63,789 bases of DNA. It comes from Verrucomicrobiota bacterium (GTDB taxonomy: Bacteria > Verrucomicrobiota > Verrucomicrobiia > Opitutales > UBA2995). The stretch lies in NCBI GenBank assembly GCA_027622555.1, contig JAQBYJ010000020.1, positions 1-63,789 on the forward strand, given 5' to 3'. Positions 3,241 through 33,420 of the stretch are shown here, piece after piece. Both the position numbers and the translations under genes were made by a program. A model generated the notes under the pieces. The model did not search any database and was not told the DNA's origin. It saw only the letters and a program-made list of their open reading frames with translations. Position 1 is the first letter of the stretch. Every line of letters starts with the position of its first letter.

Positions 3241-4671
3241 TTATGCGTCGTCCGGTTTTTTGCGCTGGGGCATACTGGCAGCGGGGTTTGACGGCAGGGA
3301 CTTTGACAGCCGTTTGATAATAGCGGCGCTGCCGGGTTGGTTGGCGATATTGTTGAATTCGCGCGGATCGTTGAAATGGTCAAACAAGGCTTCTGCATTG
3401 TCCGACTTGAGATAGCGATAACGTCCATCGCGCACGGCATGGTAATGCTCATTATCGGAGGTCAGGATAGCCCGATTGAGGTCCGTTTCTGACTCAATAA
3501 TCGGGAGAAGGCTCTGACCGTCGTTCTCTTTGTTTGCGGGGAGTCCGGCCAGCTCAATCAGCGTGGGGTAAACATCCAACAAGCTCACTGCCGTATCGAC
3601 CTCTTGCTTGTTTGCCCCGGGCTTCAAGATAAGTAAGGGCACGCGGGTGGATTCCTCCCAGAGGGTGAATTTTGAAAAATGGTCCTTTTCACCCAAGTGC
3701 CAGCCGTGGTCTGACCAGATTACGACAATCGTGTTATCCGCGAGCGGTGAAGCTTCCAAGCCTCGCAGGAGCCGACCCAGCTCAAAATCAGCGTAGGTGA
3801 CGCAGGCCGCATAGCCACGACTGGGCCCCGGTTTGCCGACGTAGTCCTTATGTCGATCCCATCGATTGGCGAGAGACTCAGGGATGTTTTTCTTCCATCC
3901 GACTGGATTCGTTGCAGGCGTGATATTGACGTCCTCATAATGATCGTAAAATTCATCCGGAACAAACCAAGGCATATGCGGACGATAGATCCCGACGGCG
4001 AGAAAGAGCGGTTTATCCTGCGGAGTCTCGAGCTGATCGATGGCCCAGTTTACGACTTTGTGGTCCCCCATATCCTTGAGCGGTTTACCGGTTCCGCCCC
4101 AATTGAAATTTCCTTCACCGCGGTTGGGCTTGATATCTGGCATGCTCGGCACCGGCAGTTGCTCCTCGAAGGACGGAAAAAAATCTTTCCAGCCCCGGGG
4201 CGATATAAGTCCTTTGCGATTGAAATCACTACCCTGATTGGCGTGATAGATTTTTCCTCCTCCCAGCGTCGTGTAGCCATGTTGTTGAAAATACTCTGGG
4301 AGCAGAAGGATGTCATCGAATCGTTCATTAGCCAGCCAGTCATGTCCGTTGGCGTAAACACCGGTCGACGCGGGATGGAGTCCCGACATGATTGAAGTGC
4401 GAGACGGGTTGCATGACGGGGCATTGCAATGAGCATTGGTGAACAGAATACCCCGATCTGCCAGCGCGTCGAAGTTCGGGGTATCCACCTCGAACGGCGC
4501 ACCGTCCAACTGGGTGGGCCCCCAATCATTAAAATCATCAATGGCGACGAAGAGGATGTTTGGATTCGACAGGCTCACCACAGGTGGCTGGCCTGCGGCC
4601 GAAAGGCTGAAGGCTAAAGGATGAAGGAGTAGTAAGAAGCTTAATGCGGAAAGGAAGAATGTGGCCTTCAT
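3241..4671 (-). CDS. Exported sulfatase, iduronate-2-sulfatase-like
   Basis: A 476-aa sulfatase with an N-terminal signal peptide ('MKATFFLSALSFLLLLHPLA'). The metal-binding 'FVAIDDFNDW' and the Cys-type maturation site CNPSR (Cys87) are intact, as is 'SDHGWHLGEKDHFSKFTLWEE', the late metal/sulfate-binding region. It is the same subfamily as its downstream neighbour but clearly diverged, so the two may act on different sulfation positions of one glycan. Both follow the beta-mannosidase-like gene only in strand sense: that gene lies beyond their 3' end, so the transcript order is this gene, then the second sulfatase, then the glycosidase. Substrate is not determinable from sequence. Confidence 0.93.
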   Translation of the reverse strand: MKATFFLSALSFLLLLHPLAFSLSAAGQPPVVSLSNPNILFVAIDDFNDWGPTQLDGAPFEVDTPNFDALADRGILFTNAHCNAPSCNPSRTSIMSGLHPASTGVYANGHDWLANERFDDILLLPEYFQQHGYTTLGGGKIYHANQGSDFNRKGLISPRGWKDFFPSFEEQLPVPSMPDIKPNRGEGNFNWGGTGKPLKDMGDHKVVNWAIDQLETPQDKPLFLAVGIYRPHMPWFVPDEFYDHYEDVNITPATNPVGWKKNIPESLANRWDRHKDYVGKPGPSRGYAACVTYADFELGRLLRGLEASPLADNTIVVIWSDHGWHLGEKDHFSKFTLWEESTRVPLLILKPGANKQEVDTAVSLLDVYPTLIELAGLPANKENDGQSLLPIIESETDLNRAILTSDNEHYHAVRDGRYRYLKSDNAEALFDHFNDPREFNNIANQPGSAAIIKRLSKSLPSNPAASMPQRKKPDDA

Positions 4672-4983
4672 GAATTTTTGAATGGGTTATCTTGAGAAAT
4701 CGAAATCTGCCAGGTGGGAAACCATCGGTTTTATGAAGTGATTTTGATCATAGCATAGATTTGCAGAGACGTGCGACAGTTTCTTTGCCAAATGCGACAA
4801 TGACAAGGTCTGTCCATCTGAATGGATGTGCTGGTCCATCCTGCTCCTTCACTCAGAATGAGAATGATCCCTAATGTTTCAAACGCCATTGATAGAGTGG
4901 TAAATATTGCCCGGCAAATAAGTGCAAGTAAATGCAAACAAGTGAAACGTCCGAGGTAAATCCTGTTTAGAATTTGGGTCCGA
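4672..4983. other. Gene-free stretch at the left edge of the accessory island
   Basis: No convincing gene. Around 4913-4950 there is a short run in which TGCA or TGAA recurs every 10 bp (TGCAAGTAAA TGCAAACAAG TGAAAC). This matches the right-hand block of the R elements found further along. I read it as a degraded R copy marking the island's left boundary. Confidence 0.45.
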
Positions 4984-5283
4984 GCGCGGAAGTGCATTGC
5001 CTATGGCGAACGGTTCGTAAGATCAATAAAGTATGAATGCCTGAACCGAATCATTCCCCTGGGCGAAAGACATCTCGAGTTGACCATCAACCATTACTTC
5101 CAACACTACAACGGGGAAAGAAATCACCAAGGAATAGAAAATAAGCTGATAAAACCAGAGATTTTGAGTCGGGAAGGGGACCTTACCTCTAGAAGCGCCT
5201 AGGTGGCATGTTAACGTACTGTTATCGCCAAGCCGCTTGAATCCAATTATTCGTGAGTGTAGGCTGATTTTTTTGGCAGTACA
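4984..5283 (+). mobile_element. IS remnant A: integrase/transposase C-terminus and right terminal repeat
   Basis: Reading the frame that ends with TAG at 5200-5202 gives 'AYGERFVRSIKYECLNRI' followed by 'HYFQHYNGERNHQGIENKLI', the C-terminal part of a DDE (rve) integrase-core transposase of the IS3/IS481 type. The upstream part is missing, so only about 70 codons remain. At 5262-5283 lies the right terminal sequence ending in 'TTGGCAGTACA'. Its reverse complement matches the left ends of the other remnants at 6148, 7127 and 11170. The element is inactive. Confidence 0.75.
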
Positions 5284-5355
5284 GGCTAAAAGGTTCATTG
5301 CCCGAGTTTTTGACTCTTCGATTCAAAGTGGTCCTGGTGGTGCTTAAATAGCAGG

Positions 5356-5389
5356 TTGACACGACTTCTGTCATACATAATGTCATACA
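5356..5389 (+). promoter_or_regulatory. Promoter and likely antitoxin operator
   Basis: TTGACA at 5356-5361 is a good -35 box. Downstream, TGTCATACA occurs twice, at 5369-5377 and 5381-5389, 12 bp apart and directly abutting the antitoxin start codon. Ribbon-helix-helix antitoxins commonly autorepress by binding such short paired repeats. No ribosome-binding site is visible, so the operator copies occupy the place where one would be. Confidence 0.55.
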
Positions 5390-5390
5390 A

Positions 5391-5642
5391 ATGGTTTCTT
5401 TGCGATTAGATACAAAACTGGAACAGGAACTCGAAAGGACTGCAGCCTCTCTGGGTGTATCTAAATCTGAGTTCATACGGAAAGTTTTGGTCGAAAAACT
5501 AAAGGAAGAAAGAAATCTCCGGACACCTTGGGAGATGGGGAAAAGTGTTTTTGGGAAGTTTGGTAGTGGCTCTAGTAACCGGTCTACCGATAGAAAAAAA
5601 ATCCTGAAAAATAAGCTAAGTGCGAAAAAGAGCCGTCATTGA
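5391..5642 (+). CDS. Ribbon-helix-helix antitoxin
   Basis: An 83-aa protein whose first 45 residues ('MVSLRLDTKLEQELERTAAS', then 'LGVSKSEFIRKVLVEKLKEE') form a classic MetJ/Arc/CopG ribbon-helix-helix DNA-binding fold. The rest is a basic, low-complexity tail that probably binds and blocks the toxin. It overlaps the following PIN-domain gene by 23 bp, the usual antitoxin-then-toxin order. It should neutralise the PIN ribonuclease and autoregulate at the repeats just upstream. It sits between IS remnants A and B. Confidence 0.85.
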   Translation: MVSLRLDTKLEQELERTAASLGVSKSEFIRKVLVEKLKEERNLRTPWEMGKSVFGKFGSGSSNRSTDRKKILKNKLSAKKSRH

Positions 5643-6042
5643 TTCCGGGCCATTAATTGCTCTGTTCGACAGAGATGATGCTCATCATGAGAAAACTCTG
5701 GAGTTTCTGGGTAAATTCAACGGGACACTCTATTCTACAATAGCGGTGATCACGGAAGTATCCCACTTGTTAGATTTCAACGCCCAGGTGCAGTGGGACT
5801 TTTTAGATTGGGTAGCCGATGGTGGCATACATCTAATCGATCTGGATAAAGATGATATTAGGCAAATTGGTTTGCTCGCTAAAAAATACTCCGATGTTCC
5901 CATGGATTTTGCGGATGCTTCCCTTGTCGTTGTTGCTGAAAAGTTAAAACTCAACTACGTTGTTAGTATAGACAGCGATTTCCTTATCTACCGGACTTCC
6001 AAAAACAAATACCTGGAGAACTTGATCGATCTTCATCACTGA
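5620..6042 (+). CDS. PIN-domain toxin, VapC-like ribonuclease
   Basis: A 140-aa PIN-domain protein starting at GTG inside the 3' end of the antitoxin gene. The acidic residues that bind Mg2+ are all visible: Asp8 ('AVIDSGPLIALF'), Glu46 ('VITEVSHLL'), Asp96/Asp99 ('MDFADASL') and Asp118 ('SIDSDF'). PIN toxins of this sort cleave RNA, often tRNA or rRNA, when the labile antitoxin is degraded. The length is normal and nothing appears broken, so the pair is probably active. The GTG start and overlap imply translational coupling to the antitoxin. Confidence 0.88.
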   Translation: MRKRAVIDSGPLIALFDRDDAHHEKTLEFLGKFNGTLYSTIAVITEVSHLLDFNAQVQWDFLDWVADGGIHLIDLDKDDIRQIGLLAKKYSDVPMDFADASLVVVAEKLKLNYVVSIDSDFLIYRTSKNKYLENLIDLHH

Positions 6043-6147
6043 GGTCATAAGCCTGCATTTTTCAAAAAAGTTTTCATCGATTGGACCACACGTTCAGGAC
6101 GTTGGAGGTGGAGCCAGTGGTAGGTGTCGTCATAATACTCCATTACG

Positions 6148-6430
6148 TGTAGGGCCAAAAAAATCAGCCCAATTACTTACGTTGAACGTGTAAGAGTTAG
6201 AACCATGGTAGGCCTACCGTGAATCCCAATTTCATTTGAAGGTAAACCTCGTTGCGGTCTGGGTAAACCGACATCCACAGACAGTCATTGAGTACCTTAC
6301 AGAGGAAAGACAGATCTTAATCGAGCAGTTGGGTGGTAAGCCGAAGGCATATCAGTGGACGGCCGCGAGAGATTTATTGGGCATGTTCAACGTCAATACG
6401 CCGGTGAAAAGCGAACTCAAATCAAGTTAA
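6148..6430 (+). mobile_element. IS remnant B: left terminal repeat and transposase N-terminus
   Basis: The left terminal sequence (6148-6169, beginning TGTAGGGCC and running through a 7-A tract) is followed at 6236 by an open frame reading 'VWVNRHPQTVIEYLTEERQI' then 'LIEQLGGKPKAYQ'. This is the N-terminal helix region typical of this integrase-type transposase. After that the frame runs into unrelated sequence and stops at 6430. The right half is absent. A partial R element (about 6491-6530, 'CTCGATTTGCCAATTTAC') follows. Confidence 0.65.
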
Positions 6431-6532
6431 ACGTTACCGGCCAAACAACCGTTCATGACAAAAAGAGCGAAAAATCATGTTCCTCGATTTGCCAATTTAC
6501 TTTCATTTAGATGCAGGGAAACCCGAGAAACC

Positions 6533-6898
6533 TCACGCCTTCTCATTCCTACCGGTTAGGGCTTTTGATATAGTACCCAGTCTCTTATCATGAGTCCAAA
6601 GTGGAGTATCGCTTACAATGGAGGAACAAAGAATATGCGCATCTGCATAACCAATGCCTTTTCCATGCAATTTATGCTTCTCTATGAAAAACAGTACTTC
6701 TTCATGCGAACATTCTATTATTTTTGGCAAATTATCCAACAGGGATAAAAATTGCTTTCTCTTCGCAATGTTTCCAACGTGCAATTCCCCGACAACCAAA
6801 GGATGCGTGGCGACTTCAGCGTCACTTAGTATATCTTCTAGTAATTGGTTCCCCTGACGTAGGAAATCGATCCAAACTGATGTATCTACCAATACCAT
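6533..6898 (-). CDS. vapC: PIN-domain toxin, VapC
   Basis: A 121-aa VapC-type PIN ribonuclease. Catalytic acids: Asp5 ('MVLVDTSVWIDFLR'), Glu38 ('VVGELHVG'), Asp86 ('IGYADAHIL') and Asp104 ('WTHDKRL'). The start codon overlaps the stop of the upstream antitoxin by one base (TAATG), so the two are translationally coupled. 'VDTSVWIDFLR' and 'LWTHDKRL' are highly typical of VapC partners of the VapB PF09957 family. It appears intact. Confidence 0.92.
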   Translation of the reverse strand: MVLVDTSVWIDFLRQGNQLLEDILSDAEVATHPLVVGELHVGNIAKRKQFLSLLDNLPKIIECSHEEVLFFIEKHKLHGKGIGYADAHILCSSIVSDTPLWTHDKRLGTISKALTGRNEKA

Positions 6899-27264: not shown

Positions 27265-27288
27265 TTAGCAAAAGGAATCCTTTGCTAA
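27265..27288. terminator. Possible bidirectional terminator hairpin
   Basis: TTAGCAAAAGGAATCCTTTGCTAA forms a stem of about 10 bp with one bulge between convergent genes and overlaps the GH1 stop codon. There is no strong T-run, so it may only be a 3' end-protecting structure. Confidence 0.4.
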
Positions 27289-28661
27289 GACAAATTATTG
27301 TCTGAACCAACAACTTGGTTCTTAAGAATATAGTCTTTATAGAATTGAGCACTCAATTTCGGAATGCGCTTCTGGCTTTCAAAATCTACAAAGTACAAAC
27401 CGAAGCGTTTTTCATAGCCTTCGGTCCACTCAAAGTTATCCATCAGGCTCCAGGCGAAATAGCCTTTTAAAGGATAACCTTCCTGGATGGCGCGTTCCGC
27501 TGCTTTCAAATGTTCTTGCAAGTAACGCACACGATCATGGTCCAATACTTCACCCAGTTCGTTCGGCATCAAGGAATCGTAACATCCGTTTTCAGAAATC
27601 ACTATTTCTTTAACTCCCCAAATTTCGTTCAGCCAGCGGGGACCCCAGTAAATGACTTCAGGGCCCATCTGGTGCCAGGGAGAGTTGGCCGCCGGTTTGC
27701 CATCCTGATCGGAAATACTTTCCCAGCCAGGCTCCGAACCGATGGCTTTAATACGGACGGGACTGTAGCTGTTTATACCAACAAAATCTAAGGGCGAGCT
27801 TATCGTTTCCATGTCCCCATTCTCGATGGTCGGCGCATCGGGTTGCTCCAGGTATTTGTTACGGTACTTGCCTTCCAGAATTACCCGAATAAAGAAACTG
27901 TATTTGTCCAGGTAAGCTTTTTTTGCAGCCTGGATATATTCATTCGTCTCCGACACCGGAATGGTGGTAGATATGTTTTCTGCGAGCCCGACTTTGCATT
28001 CGCTTGGGCATGCATCCCGGAGAGCCAACACGCCTTTGCCGTGAGCAAGCATAGCGTTGTGACGTACCTGATTAACTGTCCTCAAATCGCATTTCAATCC
28101 TGGCGCAAACTGACCGGTTTTATAGCCTAGATCTGTGAAGCATAGAAACTCGTTGATCGTGAAAAAGTGCTTAACCCTATCTCCCAATGCGCTGCCTATC
28201 GTGCTGGCATACTCAGCAAAGTAGTCCGCTATTTCACGGGACCGCCAACCTCCAATATGATCTTCCAGCCATTGGGGTAAATCCCAGTGAAACAACGTAG
28301 CATACGGTTGAATATCGTTGGCCAATAACTCATCAACTAGCCTTCCATAAAAGTCGAGTCCGGCTTGGTTAGGCTTGCTCCCCAGTTCAGGAAATATTCG
28401 ATTCCAGGAAATGGAAAACCGGTAGGCGTTGAGTCCCGTTTCTTTCATCAAAGCTACATCTTCTTTGTAGCGATGGAAGTGATCGCAAGCTCGATCACCT
28501 GAACTTCCATCTGCAATGTTTCCTGGTTGATTGCAAAACCTATCCCACACCGATGGCGTTCTTCCTGCAGCATCTATGGCCCCTTCAACCTGGTAGCTTG
28601 ATGAAGCAGTGCCCCACGCAAAATCGGGAGGGAATTGAAATGCCTGTTGTTCGGTCTTCAT
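27285..28661 (-). CDS. Glycoside hydrolase family 1 beta-glucosidase
   Basis: A 458-aa cytoplasmic retaining beta-glycosidase. I start at the ATG of 'MKTEQQAFQFPPDFAWGTAS', the normal GH1 N-terminus; the frame open to 28778 adds 39 atypical residues. Acid/base Glu171 is in 'FTINEFLCF' (usually TxNEP, here Phe instead of Pro) and nucleophile Glu357 in 'IVISENGCYD'. 'WSLMDNFEWTEGYEKRFGLY' is the usual aglycone/C-terminal motif. Divergent from a sugar symporter gene, so the pair probably takes up and cleaves beta-glucosides. Confidence 0.95.
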   Translation of the reverse strand: MKTEQQAFQFPPDFAWGTASSSYQVEGAIDAAGRTPSVWDRFCNQPGNIADGSSGDRACDHFHRYKEDVALMKETGLNAYRFSISWNRIFPELGSKPNQAGLDFYGRLVDELLANDIQPYATLFHWDLPQWLEDHIGGWRSREIADYFAEYASTIGSALGDRVKHFFTINEFLCFTDLGYKTGQFAPGLKCDLRTVNQVRHNAMLAHGKGVLALRDACPSECKVGLAENISTTIPVSETNEYIQAAKKAYLDKYSFFIRVILEGKYRNKYLEQPDAPTIENGDMETISSPLDFVGINSYSPVRIKAIGSEPGWESISDQDGKPAANSPWHQMGPEVIYWGPRWLNEIWGVKEIVISENGCYDSLMPNELGEVLDHDRVRYLQEHLKAAERAIQEGYPLKGYFAWSLMDNFEWTEGYEKRFGLYFVDFESQKRIPKLSAQFYKDYILKNQVVGSDNNLS

Positions 28662-29117
28662 GTCGATTACGTTTATCCAAAAAAGCAATACATCACGGAT
28701 TTTCACAAACTGCGCAGCCGAGATTCCAGGTTTCAAGCTGATTCCGGTTTTTTGGCCAAAGTAGCCGAAGGATCTCAAATCGGAGAAAACAATTCTCAGA
28801 AATCCATTGAATTACAGATGGATTTGATGCGGCTTGCGTAACCTTTATTTGTGCTTGTTTGAGGGACTGTAGTAGAGCCGGAGGTCGGGGTTGAAATGTT
28901 TTTTGTGCGGATACTGCGGTATCGATGTTGAGGTTGGATAGTTCCCGGTCGGGTTCGTTTCTAAAAAGAGGCTTACAACCTGTGCCTAGTCTGATGGATC
29001 ACTATTGCTCTTCAAACTATTATTCGTTTTGTTGTTTCTTGGAATCAGGCGGAAGATTCGAATGTGGAATTCGAAAATTCAGGATCGCCCCTACTGATTT
29101 CAAACGAACTAACTACT
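28662..29117. promoter_or_regulatory. Divergent promoter region of GH1 and sugar symporter genes
   Basis: 455 bp with no gene. It contains the inverted repeat GATAC-tgcg-GTATC at 28910-28923, near the middle, which could bind a regulator controlling both directions. No regulator gene is adjacent. Confidence 0.4.
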
Positions 29118-30518
29118 ATGACAGATTCTCAACGTGTAGGCATCCGGGAGAAAATCTCCTATGGCTTTGGTGACCTCGCATCCGTGCTGTATTGGCAGAC
29201 GATCAGCGTACATCTGTTTTTCTTTTACACGGAATCGTTTGGACTCACTGCGACAGCGTTCAGTCTAATGATCCTTTTCAGCCGAAACTTCGATGCCATT
29301 AGTGATCCACTGATGGGAATGATTGCGGATCGTACTGAAACAAAGTGGGGAAGGTATCGCCCATATCTGTTGTGGTTTTGTGTGCCTTTGGCCATCATGG
29401 GAGTACTCATGTTTACGACTCCTGATTTCGGAGACACAGGTAAGGTAGTCTGGGCATGGATAACCTTTAACGGGTTTATGATTCTCTATACCTTGATCAA
29501 CATTCCCTATACCTCAATGCTTGGTGTGATTTCCTCCGATGCGAAGGTAAGAACTTCGGTGTCCTCGGTAAAGTTTACCTTCAGCTATATTGCTGCTCTA
29601 GTGGTTACCGCCGGAATGCTGCCTTTTGTTCGGATGATCGGGGGAGATCCCAGGAGTCAGTTTGGGTGGCAGGTCATGTTCATTATTATTGGGGTGGCTT
29701 CCATACTATTTTTTGTGATCTGTTTTTTGGGAACCAGGGAACGGATAAATCCTCCAAAAACAAATGCCAGGTTTTCAGATGATCTCCGGGATTTAGTGAG
29801 AAATGGACCTTGGTTAATTCTTCTCCCTCTTACCTTCACCTTCATTCTCTTTGTGGCCACAAGGTTGATAGTGATTAATCATTATTTTCTCTATTATGTG
29901 GATGATCGGGAGGTAGTGCTTCCCTTCCTGGGCACGAAGTTTTATGCCTTTGATACCCTGGTTTCTGCATTTAACTTTGTAGGGATGGTGGCCGCGATTT
30001 TTGGTGCTCTTTTCGTAGGTTGGTTTGCTCAAATTACAGGCAAAAAGAGCGCTTTTACTATCTTGATGACAGTGGCGATCCTCTCCATAGCAGCGTTCTT
30101 CTTTCTGCAACCGCATCAACTTGGGTGGATGTTATTTTTTCAGGTTCTTGGTTCATTTACGAGCGCACCTTTGAGTGCAATACTTTGGGCCATGTATTCG
30201 GATACTGCTGATTACGGAGAATGGAAATTCGGCCGTCGCTCAACCGGCTTGGTTTTTTCGGCTTCCACGATGTCCCAAAAATTTGGATGGGCCTTTGGAA
30301 TTGGAATTACCAGTTGGGTTCTCGCTCGTGCCGGCTACGTTCAAGGTATGGATTCGACCGTCGAGGTCCGAAACGTCCTGGTTTTATTCATGAGCCTAGT
30401 CCCAGCTGTAATCGGCCTTATTCCTTTAGGTATTATGTATTTTTACCCCTTGAACGACAAGCGAGTTGCTGAAATTGAAACAGAGCTGAGTGCCCGCAAA
30501 GCCATAACTGAGGTGTAA
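29118..30518 (+). CDS. GPH-family (MelB-like) sugar:cation symporter
   Basis: A 466-aa membrane protein with about 12 transmembrane helices. I start at ATG for 'MTDSQRVGIREKISYGFGDL'; the frame open from 29064 lacks a reason for a longer start. 'RNFDAISDPLMGMIADRTET' and 'WGRYRPYLLW' are the cytoplasmic loop signature of the glycoside-pentoside-hexuronide symporters. It probably imports the substrate of the divergent beta-glucosidase, driven by Na+ or H+. Confidence 0.93.
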   Translation: MTDSQRVGIREKISYGFGDLASVLYWQTISVHLFFFYTESFGLTATAFSLMILFSRNFDAISDPLMGMIADRTETKWGRYRPYLLWFCVPLAIMGVLMFTTPDFGDTGKVVWAWITFNGFMILYTLINIPYTSMLGVISSDAKVRTSVSSVKFTFSYIAALVVTAGMLPFVRMIGGDPRSQFGWQVMFIIIGVASILFFVICFLGTRERINPPKTNARFSDDLRDLVRNGPWLILLPLTFTFILFVATRLIVINHYFLYYVDDREVVLPFLGTKFYAFDTLVSAFNFVGMVAAIFGALFVGWFAQITGKKSAFTILMTVAILSIAAFFFLQPHQLGWMLFFQVLGSFTSAPLSAILWAMYSDTADYGEWKFGRRSTGLVFSASTMSQKFGWAFGIGITSWVLARAGYVQGMDSTVEVRNVLVLFMSLVPAVIGLIPLGIMYFYPLNDKRVAEIETELSARKAITEV

Positions 30519-30771: not shown

Positions 30772-33420
30772 ATGTCTGGCTATAATTCGGAACATACTTT
30801 CATGACTCCCCTTGAACAAAATGTGCGGATTATTATCCAGGAACTGGGGCCATTGGGGGCGTTTGAAAAACTCATTGCGGATAATGATGCATTGATTCTG
30901 TGCGATCGCTTGGACATCGGCAGGAAAATCGTCTCTGAAAGAACGGCCATCTACATCGAGTTGACGCGCCATTGGGCTGAGCAGCAGCATGCACTATTGG
31001 CTTACGATAAACCGTTTGCAGTCGTTGCGCTGGGAGGGACAGGTCGGGGGGAGATGACCCCTTATTCAGATACGGATTTTGCGTTTCTTTTTGATGGCGC
31101 TCTGGAAGGGAATTCCTTCTTGCTGAAACTGCAAAAACAGATTCTTCACTCAGACGCTTTTCAAAAGAAGTTCGGTTTTGCTTGTGAGGCGCTGCCGTTT
31201 TCATTGGACGACATTCCTTCGCTTGAGGGGAAGCAGCTGAATTCGTTTCTCGATATGCGGCCGGTTTACGATCCCGATGGCTTGACTCAAGTCTTTCTGG
31301 AACGTATTCGGGCTTCGTATAACCCCTTCGATCACTTCCTGCATGTGCGTGAATTTTGGCAAGGGCAGTGGAAAGGTGCCTCCCAGAGAAGTGAGGATTT
31401 TGATCACTTCGATATCAAGAATGATGGTCTTCGGGTATTTTTAGCAGGTATCTGGACCTTGGCGGGCAAAGAGTTTGTCCATAGCCATACGATTTATAAG
31501 GAGCTAAAAGATTGGCGGGATCTTGATGCTTACGAATTTTTGTTACGTATTCGTGCCTTTTTGCATTCCAGACGCAGTGGGCAACGAAGACCGGGTGCTG
31601 GTGGAAATCATCCGGAGGACATCATGACTTTTGATGACTTCGTATCCTTTGGCAGCCTGTTGGGTAAGGATGCCATTTTGGCGGCGCAATTTGAATTCGG
31701 AAACAAGGTTAGGGCTATGCTCTTTGCTGCCAGAAGAAGAATCGCCATTTTTTCTCAAAGTGTGATTCGACATGAACTTAAGAGCCAGAGGGAGGTTAGT
31801 AAGATTAGCCCTATTGTGTACGGCTTGGGTGGGCTGTGTATGAATGTGGATTTAACTACTGGTGAGCCTGCTGAAAAAAGTCGCCACGCGCTCTCTCTGC
31901 TTTTGGCTTCCCAGCGTTACAATACATCTATTGATCCGGTCGAATTGCAGAATGCGTTTTGGGATGCAGGAGACTGGCTCCAGTTGACTCCGGAGTTGGC
32001 TGGAATCTTTTATGAAGAAAAGGGAAGTCTTGCCTCGACCTTTGAATTTCTCTCGCAAGTGGTGGGAGCGGAGGAGCGTCTATTCCCTGGCTACGGGAAG
32101 TTCGAATCCTCGTTGGATGGACGAATTATGGTGGAGCGCCGATCCCTACGTGGCAAACTCCAGCGAGAGAAAATTCGAGCCTTGGAAGGGTTCATCGAAA
32201 CCGGACGAGCATTGCTTGAAAAGGCGACATCGAGTAGCCAACTCCTCAGTTTTAATGAAGACGTCAATATCCCGGTTGAAGCAGCTTTGCTCGACTCGGA
32301 TTTCATAGCAGCGATCAAATTGGCGCTAAAAACGAAACGGCTGCCTTTGACGGAGCAGGACCATTTGAAGCTTTATGATGAATCGTACCCATTACACGAA
32401 CGATTCGCTTCCGGGTTTTCTGGAATCTCCTTGGATGACTACTACCAACCCTTTTCAGCTGATGGCGGTTTTTCTGAACATACTATCAGGATTGTAAAGT
32501 TCCTCATCGCCAACCGGAGTGCATTAATGCGTTTCACGCTTTCTGGGTTGAATGACGCAAAAAAAGTTAATGAATTCTCATCCCTTTGCGGCGATGAGGA
32601 TCATTTGCGCGCCCTCTTTGTTTTCACCTGTGCGGATCGGGTGGAATGGGAATCTGAATCCTCTCAGCCTACTCGTTGGTTTAACATAAAAGAATTATAC
32701 TCCAAGGCATTGAAGGGTTTTAGGCCTGGAGTTGATCCTTCTCGGGAATTGACTGCTGCCGGATATGCGGAAGATGAGTTGGCTGTTCTGAAAGACTTCG
32801 GACAGGACTTTTTCGGGGGGATGTATCGTCGGTATGCCAACCGTTTTGGTCCGCACCTGCTTCGATTAGCTCAGGATACCCAATTCAATGATTGTAAATC
32901 GACTTTATTGCGAGCGGGTGCTTCCACCATCCTCGGTATCGCAGCACGGGACGTTCGGGGACTTGCCGCGACGATTACAGGGCTTTTGTGGCAGAACGGT
33001 GTTAGGCTTACACAGGCCCACCTGTTTTCTTCCTCTAATCACAATTTAGCCATTGATTTTTTCCATATTGAACCGATGGGAAAATCCTTTCCTGAAAATA
33101 TGGCCCGGATTATTGAGAAGCGTGTGAACGAAGGACTGGTGGTTGAGGAAGCAGTTGGAGTATCACCGCCAAAGCTGAAAGGTGGTGTTTCTTTGGTCGA
33201 GTGGCGCCCTGGTCAATACAGTTTAAAGTACGAGGGGAACGAAGATAGGGATGGCCTGATTTTTTCTCTTACTTTTGGCATCTTCAAATATTTAAATGCG
33301 AATATCTTCGGGCTTACTGCTTACAAAACGAGAAGAGGCGTGTTTGCTTCGGTCTATTTAAACCTGCCGGAAACTATATCTTTTGAAGAAGCCAGGCAAC
33401 TTGTAGAAAATCACTTTTAA
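30772..33420 (+). CDS. GlnD-like nucleotidyltransferase with ACT domains, HD motif lost
   Basis: An 882-aa protein built like GlnD (PII uridylyltransferase/uridylyl-removing enzyme). The nucleotidyltransferase motif is intact: 'LGGTGRGEMTPYSDTDFAFL' (residues 87-106; Asp100, Asp102 as metal ligands). A helical domain follows. Two ACT-like segments close the protein ('GIAARDVRGLAATITGLLWQ' and 'DRDGLIFSLTFGIFKYLNAN'). The central HD phosphohydrolase signature (H...HD...D, normally 'LLHDIGKG') is not present, although 'FSEHTIRIVKFL' and 'FVFTCADRVEW' mark where it would be. It can thus add but probably not remove nucleotide. The target (PII or other) is unknown; no glnB lies near. No ribosome site decides between ATG 30772 and 30802. 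Confidence 0.8.
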   Translation: MSGYNSEHTFMTPLEQNVRIIIQELGPLGAFEKLIADNDALILCDRLDIGRKIVSERTAIYIELTRHWAEQQHALLAYDKPFAVVALGGTGRGEMTPYSDTDFAFLFDGALEGNSFLLKLQKQILHSDAFQKKFGFACEALPFSLDDIPSLEGKQLNSFLDMRPVYDPDGLTQVFLERIRASYNPFDHFLHVREFWQGQWKGASQRSEDFDHFDIKNDGLRVFLAGIWTLAGKEFVHSHTIYKELKDWRDLDAYEFLLRIRAFLHSRRSGQRRPGAGGNHPEDIMTFDDFVSFGSLLGKDAILAAQFEFGNKVRAMLFAARRRIAIFSQSVIRHELKSQREVSKISPIVYGLGGLCMNVDLTTGEPAEKSRHALSLLLASQRYNTSIDPVELQNAFWDAGDWLQLTPELAGIFYEEKGSLASTFEFLSQVVGAEERLFPGYGKFESSLDGRIMVERRSLRGKLQREKIRALEGFIETGRALLEKATSSSQLLSFNEDVNIPVEAALLDSDFIAAIKLALKTKRLPLTEQDHLKLYDESYPLHERFASGFSGISLDDYYQPFSADGGFSEHTIRIVKFLIANRSALMRFTLSGLNDAKKVNEFSSLCGDEDHLRALFVFTCADRVEWESESSQPTRWFNIKELYSKALKGFRPGVDPSRELTAAGYAEDELAVLKDFGQDFFGGMYRRYANRFGPHLLRLAQDTQFNDCKSTLLRAGASTILGIAARDVRGLAATITGLLWQNGVRLTQAHLFSSSNHNLAIDFFHIEPMGKSFPENMARIIEKRVNEGLVVEEAVGVSPPKLKGGVSLVEWRPGQYSLKYEGNEDRDGLIFSLTFGIFKYLNANIFGLTAYKTRRGVFASVYLNLPETISFEEARQLVENHF

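Follow-up and report, generated by a model that had tools for sequence, protein, structure and literature searches.

A GlnD-related gene in the window

The window, that is, the whole 63,789-nucleotide stretch of verrucomicrobial DNA analysed here, contains a gene for a protein (P0001) that the first-pass annotation had described as GlnD-like, with the nucleotidyltransferase (NT) and ACT parts kept and the HD removal site lost (Table 1). The relationship to GlnD is borne out over the whole length of the protein. In a profile–profile comparison, the family of HD-less proteins (alignment A4, 30 rows) matched canonical GlnD (alignment A5, 26 rows) across 782 columns, with a probability of 99.6 and an E-value of 2.9e-24. 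A4 omits L082, whose reading frame is broken, and includes 11 rows without a verified start codon (L056, L061, L063, L064, L065, L069, L078, L079, L080, L081 and L083). A5 consists of the GlnD encoded in the same genome as P0001 (P0002) and the GlnDs of 25 of the 30 named carriers of an HD-less gene; the GlnDs left out of it (L111, L113, L114, L116 and L117) were scored separately for their NT and HD sites.

Table 1. Features of the HD-less GlnD paralog in the window
Feature	Position	Strand	Basis
HD-less GlnD paralog, 882 aa, intact	30772..33420	+	ORF call, ATG start; profile match
NT domain and helical part, ~aa 13-337	30808..31782	+	model vs GlnE N-terminal domain
NT active-site motif GGTGRGEMTPYSDTD, aa 88-102	31033..31077	+	intact in 29/29 rows spanning it
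D161, probable third carboxylate	31252..31254	+	D in 30/30 family rows
DIKNDGLR, aa 214-221, counterpart of GlnD P-[DNH]-x-K-x3-GGLRD	31411..31434	+	alignment
HD-like helical domain, metal ligands lost, ~aa 366-652	31867..32727	+	alignment, model
R582, replaces invariant HD-domain His (H575 of P0002)	32515..32517	+	R in 27/30
D622, last HD-site Asp (D616 of P0002)	32635..32637	+	D in 30/30
First ACT domain, ~aa 709-800	32896..33171	+	model, fold match
Second ACT domain, ~aa 801-882, least conserved region	33172..33417	+	model, fold match

None of the curated models exceeded its cut-off on P0001. The score against TIGR01693 (UTase_glnD) was 46.7 bits, compared with a curated cut-off of 519.4, and the Pfam models DUF294, NTP_transf_2, ACT and GlnE all stayed below their thresholds. 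DUF294 (PF03445) came close, at 19.6 bits against a gathering cut-off of 21, and matched all ten family members scanned at E-values up to 1, the best being 3e-06. A sequence-based search of solved structures returned nothing relevant to P0001 (best E-value 0.3).

The AlphaFold model of the protein (mean pLDDT 88.6, pTM 0.85) was compared with solved structures. Its NT domain resembles the N-terminal domain of E. coli GlnE (1v4a, Z 21.6 over 295 residues) and 3k7d_B (Z 19.7). At the C-terminal end, two β-α-β units are modeled, and the region spanning residues 652–882 resembles the ACT pair of aspartate kinase (Z 9.8) as well as that of threonine deaminase (Z 7.5–7.8). Both ACT domains thus appear to be kept at the level of fold. 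In genome G794, locus L236:1531-5223 has a frame of 1231 residues that is GlnE-like by eye; between its two halves lies a stretch with a weak match to the C-terminal portion of the curated GlnD model.

Conservation of the nucleotidyltransferase site

The transferase motif, noted as intact in the first-pass annotation, is indeed whole in P0001. Gly 88, Gly 89, Gly 91, Arg 92, Ser 99, Asp 100 and Asp 102 are conserved in every one of the 29 rows spanning them (L079 starts past the motif, so that 29 rather than 30 rows can be scored). Lys 216, within the counterpart of the second GlnD motif, is found in all 30 family rows. At the position corresponding to Asp 161, canonical GlnDs have Glu in 21 and Asp in 5 of 26 sequences.

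Loss of the HD metal ligands and retention of the fold

In the joint alignment, five His residues at the HD site are invariant in all 26 canonical GlnDs; in P0002 they are His 483, His 490, His 532, His 543 and His 575. The absence of the HD signature is evident throughout the family: 25 of the 30 rows, P0001 included, retain none of the five, and each of the remaining five rows retains a single one, at differing columns. The Asp of the HD pair aligns with Asp in 23 of 30 rows (Asp 536 in P0001), in a part where the alignment is loose. We also looked for a substitute set of ligands. Between residues 441 and 650, no His is shared by all 30 rows; the best column has His in 20/30 rows (residue 542, His in P0001) and the second best in 19/30 (residue 511, Phe in P0001). 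An HD-type metal site in some other arrangement is therefore unlikely, and none can be assembled from conserved residues. As judged from the aligned sequences, the HD metal site of this family is lost, not merely moved.

The domain itself has been retained. The AlphaFold model shows a helical fold in this region, in agreement with the earlier observation that the flanking helices can still be traced, and the last HD-site Asp is universal in the family. Among solved structures, the helical middle resembles tRNA-processing enzymes (3wfq_F, Z 17.1, residues 186–652) and, with middling scores, HD-superfamily phosphodiesterases (Z 5.8–6.4). The former HD region contains 25 invariant residues, among them Glu 445, Ser 447, Asp 449, Arg 451, Arg 460, Lys 467, Leu 517–Leu 519 and Lys 522–Pro 525, and the mean pairwise identity of the HD-like part within the family is 49%. 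A dead HD domain kept at this level of identity probably still has a structural or relay role.

Distribution and evolution of the family

In the phylogenetic tree, the 30 HD-less proteins form one branch with top support, separate from canonical GlnD, and the stem of the family is long (2.19 + 1.28 changes per column around the midpoint root). Together with the low TIGR01693 score, this speaks against the proviso, raised at the outset, that P0001 might belong to a well-known clade of normal bifunctional GlnDs. Instead, it is a member of an old family of GlnD paralogs with a patchy distribution, produced by loss or transfer.

The patchiness is apparent at every level sampled. Within the order, close relatives occur in two more genomes of 177, both of the same genus and 67% and 62% identical to P0001, the former ending at the end of its contig. 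A full-length match is present in 8 of 384 genomes of the class, counting the genome of the window, and in a sample of the phylum only the latter, out of 387, matches at E ≤ 1e-20. Since the class and phylum scans scored at most two candidates per genome, they may have overlooked a few members, and some genomes counted below as non-carriers may carry the HD-less gene. Scanning GTDB genomes with P0001 alone as the query gave no loci; the alignment plus two peptide patterns retrieved at least 30 loci, 28 of the 30 being titled as Verrucomicrobiota or its subgroups. The other two, labelled Planctomycetaceae (L070) and Kuenenia (L079), pair up inside the family tree, and we suspect that they are misnamed MAGs. 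Plasmids yielded no match to the family. On the GlnD tree, in a sample rich in carriers, the presence of the HD-less gene requires 20 changes.

Conservation is highest where the transferase chemistry would reside. Mean pairwise identity is 61% in the NT core, 59% in the middle, 58% in the rest of the NT domain, 49% in ACT1 and 39% in ACT2. Because dS values involving P0001 are saturated, dN/dS was estimated from other family pairs only: it is 0.14 for the closest pair, L075/L076 (dS 0.86), and 0.29–0.49 for the seven other pairs listed, whose dS of 0.88–1.0 is near saturation.

These data bear on two alternative explanations. The protein could be a catalytically idle regulator, for instance one that binds PII or GlnD as a decoy or partner subunit; paralogs of this kind are often pseudo-enzymes, and one of its active sites is dead already. 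We regard this as improbable, as the GGxGR..SDxD residues are kept in every row spanning them and no part of the protein is better conserved than the NT core. It is harder still to credit that the gene is decaying into a pseudogene or stems from a MAG artefact: no internal stop interrupts the window gene or 29 of the 30 named loci (three of the frames reach a contig end), and mean column identity across the family alignment is 57%. What could be cited for decay is that the same genome retains a small 3′ remnant of another copy, together with the broken frame of one family member (L082:7890-10850), which is either an assembly error or a pseudogene.

Genomic neighborhoods

Across 30 loci, eight of which lie on less than 10 kb and offer little flank, no conserved neighbor ties the HD-less gene to nitrogen genes. 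Only two clusters of neighboring families recur, each at 3 of 31 loci. In genomes G796 and G797, the distance between the HD-less gene and a PII gene is about 8 kb; as both genomes belong to one genus, we gave this no weight. Upstream of the paralog in the window (positions 27285-30518), beta-glucosidase-like and sugar-transporter-like genes could be recognized by eye, and no nitrogen gene was recognized beside the paralog.

The remnant mentioned above (L033:7385-7729; contig C16:28384-28722 of the same genome) preserves the 3′ part of another HD-less gene. It shares 51% identity with P0001 and, judged by eye, is more similar to the copy of genome G089. The 5′ part of that gene has no match in the genome. 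Two nearby ORFs resemble, also by eye, a tyrosine-recombinase integrase (L033:1976-3247) and a primase (4489-6888).

Canonical GlnD and PII in carrier genomes

A one-way enzyme had been predicted to need a separate remover. A search of the genome for a second, complete glnD found one on contig C7, with both sites present and the HD motif reading HDIGK. The search for PII genes found two, on contigs C22 and C87, each adjoining amtB in an amtB-glnK operon, and both PII T-loops read RGSEYTVDF. The same partners are typical of carriers: TIGR01693 matches at E ≤ 0.001 in all 30 named carriers (over the cut-off in 26), and PII is present in 28 of them. Among 20 PII genes fetched from carriers, 19 have the T-loop RG[SA]EYTVDF, and the 20th (L246) resembles a divergent PII-like protein. 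GlnD is in any case widespread in the class (E ≤ 1e-60 in 117 of 141 genomes), so its co-occurrence with the paralog is uninformative beyond indicating addition rather than replacement.

Complementary loss in canonical GlnD

In four of 34 carriers, the canonical GlnD has a broken transferase site and intact HD ligands. Three sites were broken by substitution: SGIE replaces SDxD in L104, and the motif reads GAYGR..TAVR in L113 and GSYGR..SNLD in L114. The fourth GlnD, L117, is without the entire NT domain; its 562-residue ORF, on a 55-kb contig, begins 66 bp past a gene that is mnmG-like by eye. All four HD-less partners (L059, L080, L085 and L063, respectively) have intact NT motifs. The carriers counted are the 30 named ones, the genome of the window, and G226, G282 and G806; L147, which shares its genome with a carrier, is not counted.

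Among 120 non-carriers (113 of the class sample and 7 of the family of genome G290), a single GlnD is broken. The difference from carriers is significant if genomes are treated as independent (Fisher p 0.0086). It is not significant in independent pairs on the tree, where the direction is as predicted in 1–3 of 14 pairs and opposite in none (median sign-test p 0.5). The class GlnD sample lies within the genomes scanned for the HD-less paralog. As the first control, 30 top-scoring class loci, was biased toward good scores, the other 86 were added, and 115 of all 116 class GlnDs have an intact transferase site; eight further genomes from the family of G290 and the genome of the window joined the class count. 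The five broken GlnDs, including that of G290, need four changes on the GlnD tree, and transferase loss has therefore arisen more than once.

The one broken non-carrier deserves a closer look. The GlnD of G290 (L229) has the degenerate transferase motif GGYGCRDLSSASDIE, and no HD-less paralog was found in this genome. G290 is a congener of a broken carrier, and the GlnDs of the two are 89% identical over the HD-ACT part. Either the HD-less gene was lost or missed in this 94%-complete MAG, or its GlnD decayed first for some other reason. In the same family, genome G808 encodes a canonical-type GlnD (L281) with an intact NT site and HD ligands reading HLHHDAQD instead of HHHHDHHD; it may represent another one-way GlnD of independent origin. 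G808, a MAG with 8% contamination, yielded no HD-less paralog, which implies that parts of GlnD can decay without an HD-less partner.

In the remaining 30 of the 34 carriers, the genome of the window included, GlnD has kept its transferase site intact, and its HD ligands as well, except that a run of N hides one in L116. A second writer is therefore not needed for catalysis as such. At the same time, it is suggestive that GlnD can afford to lose its transferase when the paralog is present, which fits a substrate shared by the two proteins. The case of L117 is instructive in this respect. A Sinorhizobium meliloti GlnD without its N-terminal domain is described as unable to modify PII (PMC3596328), and a GlnD that lacks the NT domain and keeps all HD ligands therefore makes most sense if another writer is present.

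A one-way nucleotidylyltransferase acting on some other target seems to us rather unlikely. That target could be glutamine synthetase, a second PII-like protein or something unrelated to either, and the dead HD domain would have come to bind the substrate or a ligand. Several observations would suit this reading: the long stem of the family, the invariant residues peculiar to the former HD region, the intact GlnD transferase in most carriers and the absence of nitrogen genes among neighbors. In addition, S. meliloti GlnD is reported to act also without PII (PMC3596328), which would fit a non-PII target. However, the loss of the GlnD transferase with the HD site kept in four carriers is best explained by a shared substrate. 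Of the two options offered in the first-pass annotation, a one-way enzyme served by a separate remover is thus favored over one that tags something else, although this falls short of proof.

A putative writer of the PII modification

Taken together, the site losses in the paralog and in the GlnDs of a few carriers suggest that writing and erasing have been split over two proteins. P0001 is probably best understood as a writer-only PII nucleotidylyltransferase that works beside GlnD as the eraser. More broadly, Verrucomicrobiota may well possess a natural split between a dedicated writer and, in some lineages, an eraser-only GlnD, the two being separately controllable. We infer the catalytic activity itself, the nucleotide, PII as the target and glutamine as the signal.

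According to this model, an old duplication of GlnD would have given rise to the paralog, which then lost the uridylyl-removing HD site. The fold of the HD domain would have stayed, probably to serve as a relay that connects the two C-terminal ACT domains with the transferase. The ACT domains would sense a low glutamine level and thereby turn the writer on, and the writer would place UMP (or AMP) on the T-loop Tyr of GlnK/PII, from which ordinary GlnD would take the tag off again. AMP is the PII nucleotide in actinobacteria. Writing and erasing could then be controlled separately, like RelA and SpoT in the case of ppGpp.

A conserved one-way paralog, coupled with a matching loss of the opposite site in the GlnD of some carriers, makes it testable why a single chain usually houses both activities and what advantage their separation brings. 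In addition, "PII uridylyltransferase" would be a misleading name for GlnDs that are unable to write.

Comparison with known systems

A review ascribes both GlnD activities to one enzyme and names PII as the sole substrate known for it (PMC4285133). The window protein has the same order of parts as GlnD (TIGR01693), namely NT, helical, HD-fold and ACT-ACT, and shares the NT and D-x-K...GLR motifs, but its family is without the HD metal ligands, scores far below the GlnD cut-off and occupies a separate branch. It is thus a GlnD-derived protein that fails a defining feature of GlnD, and the evolutionary pattern points to a division of labor. Among the papers listed in literature searches, none showed an HD-less GlnD in its title or the start of its abstract, although absence there is not the same as absence from print.

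GlnE, the glutamine synthetase adenylyltransferase, provides the closest solved fold for the NT domain. However, it has two NT domains in tandem, whereas the window protein has one, followed by the HD-like and ACT parts, and scores below the Pfam GlnE cut-off.

The engineered GlnD-sm2 of S. meliloti, from which the N-terminal UTase domain was deleted, has the same kind of truncation as the natural L117, but it is laboratory-made, and its description (PMC3596328) features no partner writer.

RelA/SpoT of beta- and gammaproteobacteria offers an analogy, for which we claim no homology: there, too, a two-way enzyme was duplicated and one copy, RelA, keeps an inactive HD domain. RelA is described as standing beside a SpoT able to hydrolyse, and some SpoTs as hydrolases only (PMC3153485); the SpoT of Acinetobacter baumannii is reported to be one such hydrolase (PMC9974481). 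These hydrolase-only SpoTs resemble the carrier GlnDs without a transferase site. The systems differ in that ppGpp is a small molecule and not a protein tag, and the synthesis domain is unrelated. If our interpretation is true, the writer/eraser split would be the protein-tag counterpart of RelA/SpoT.
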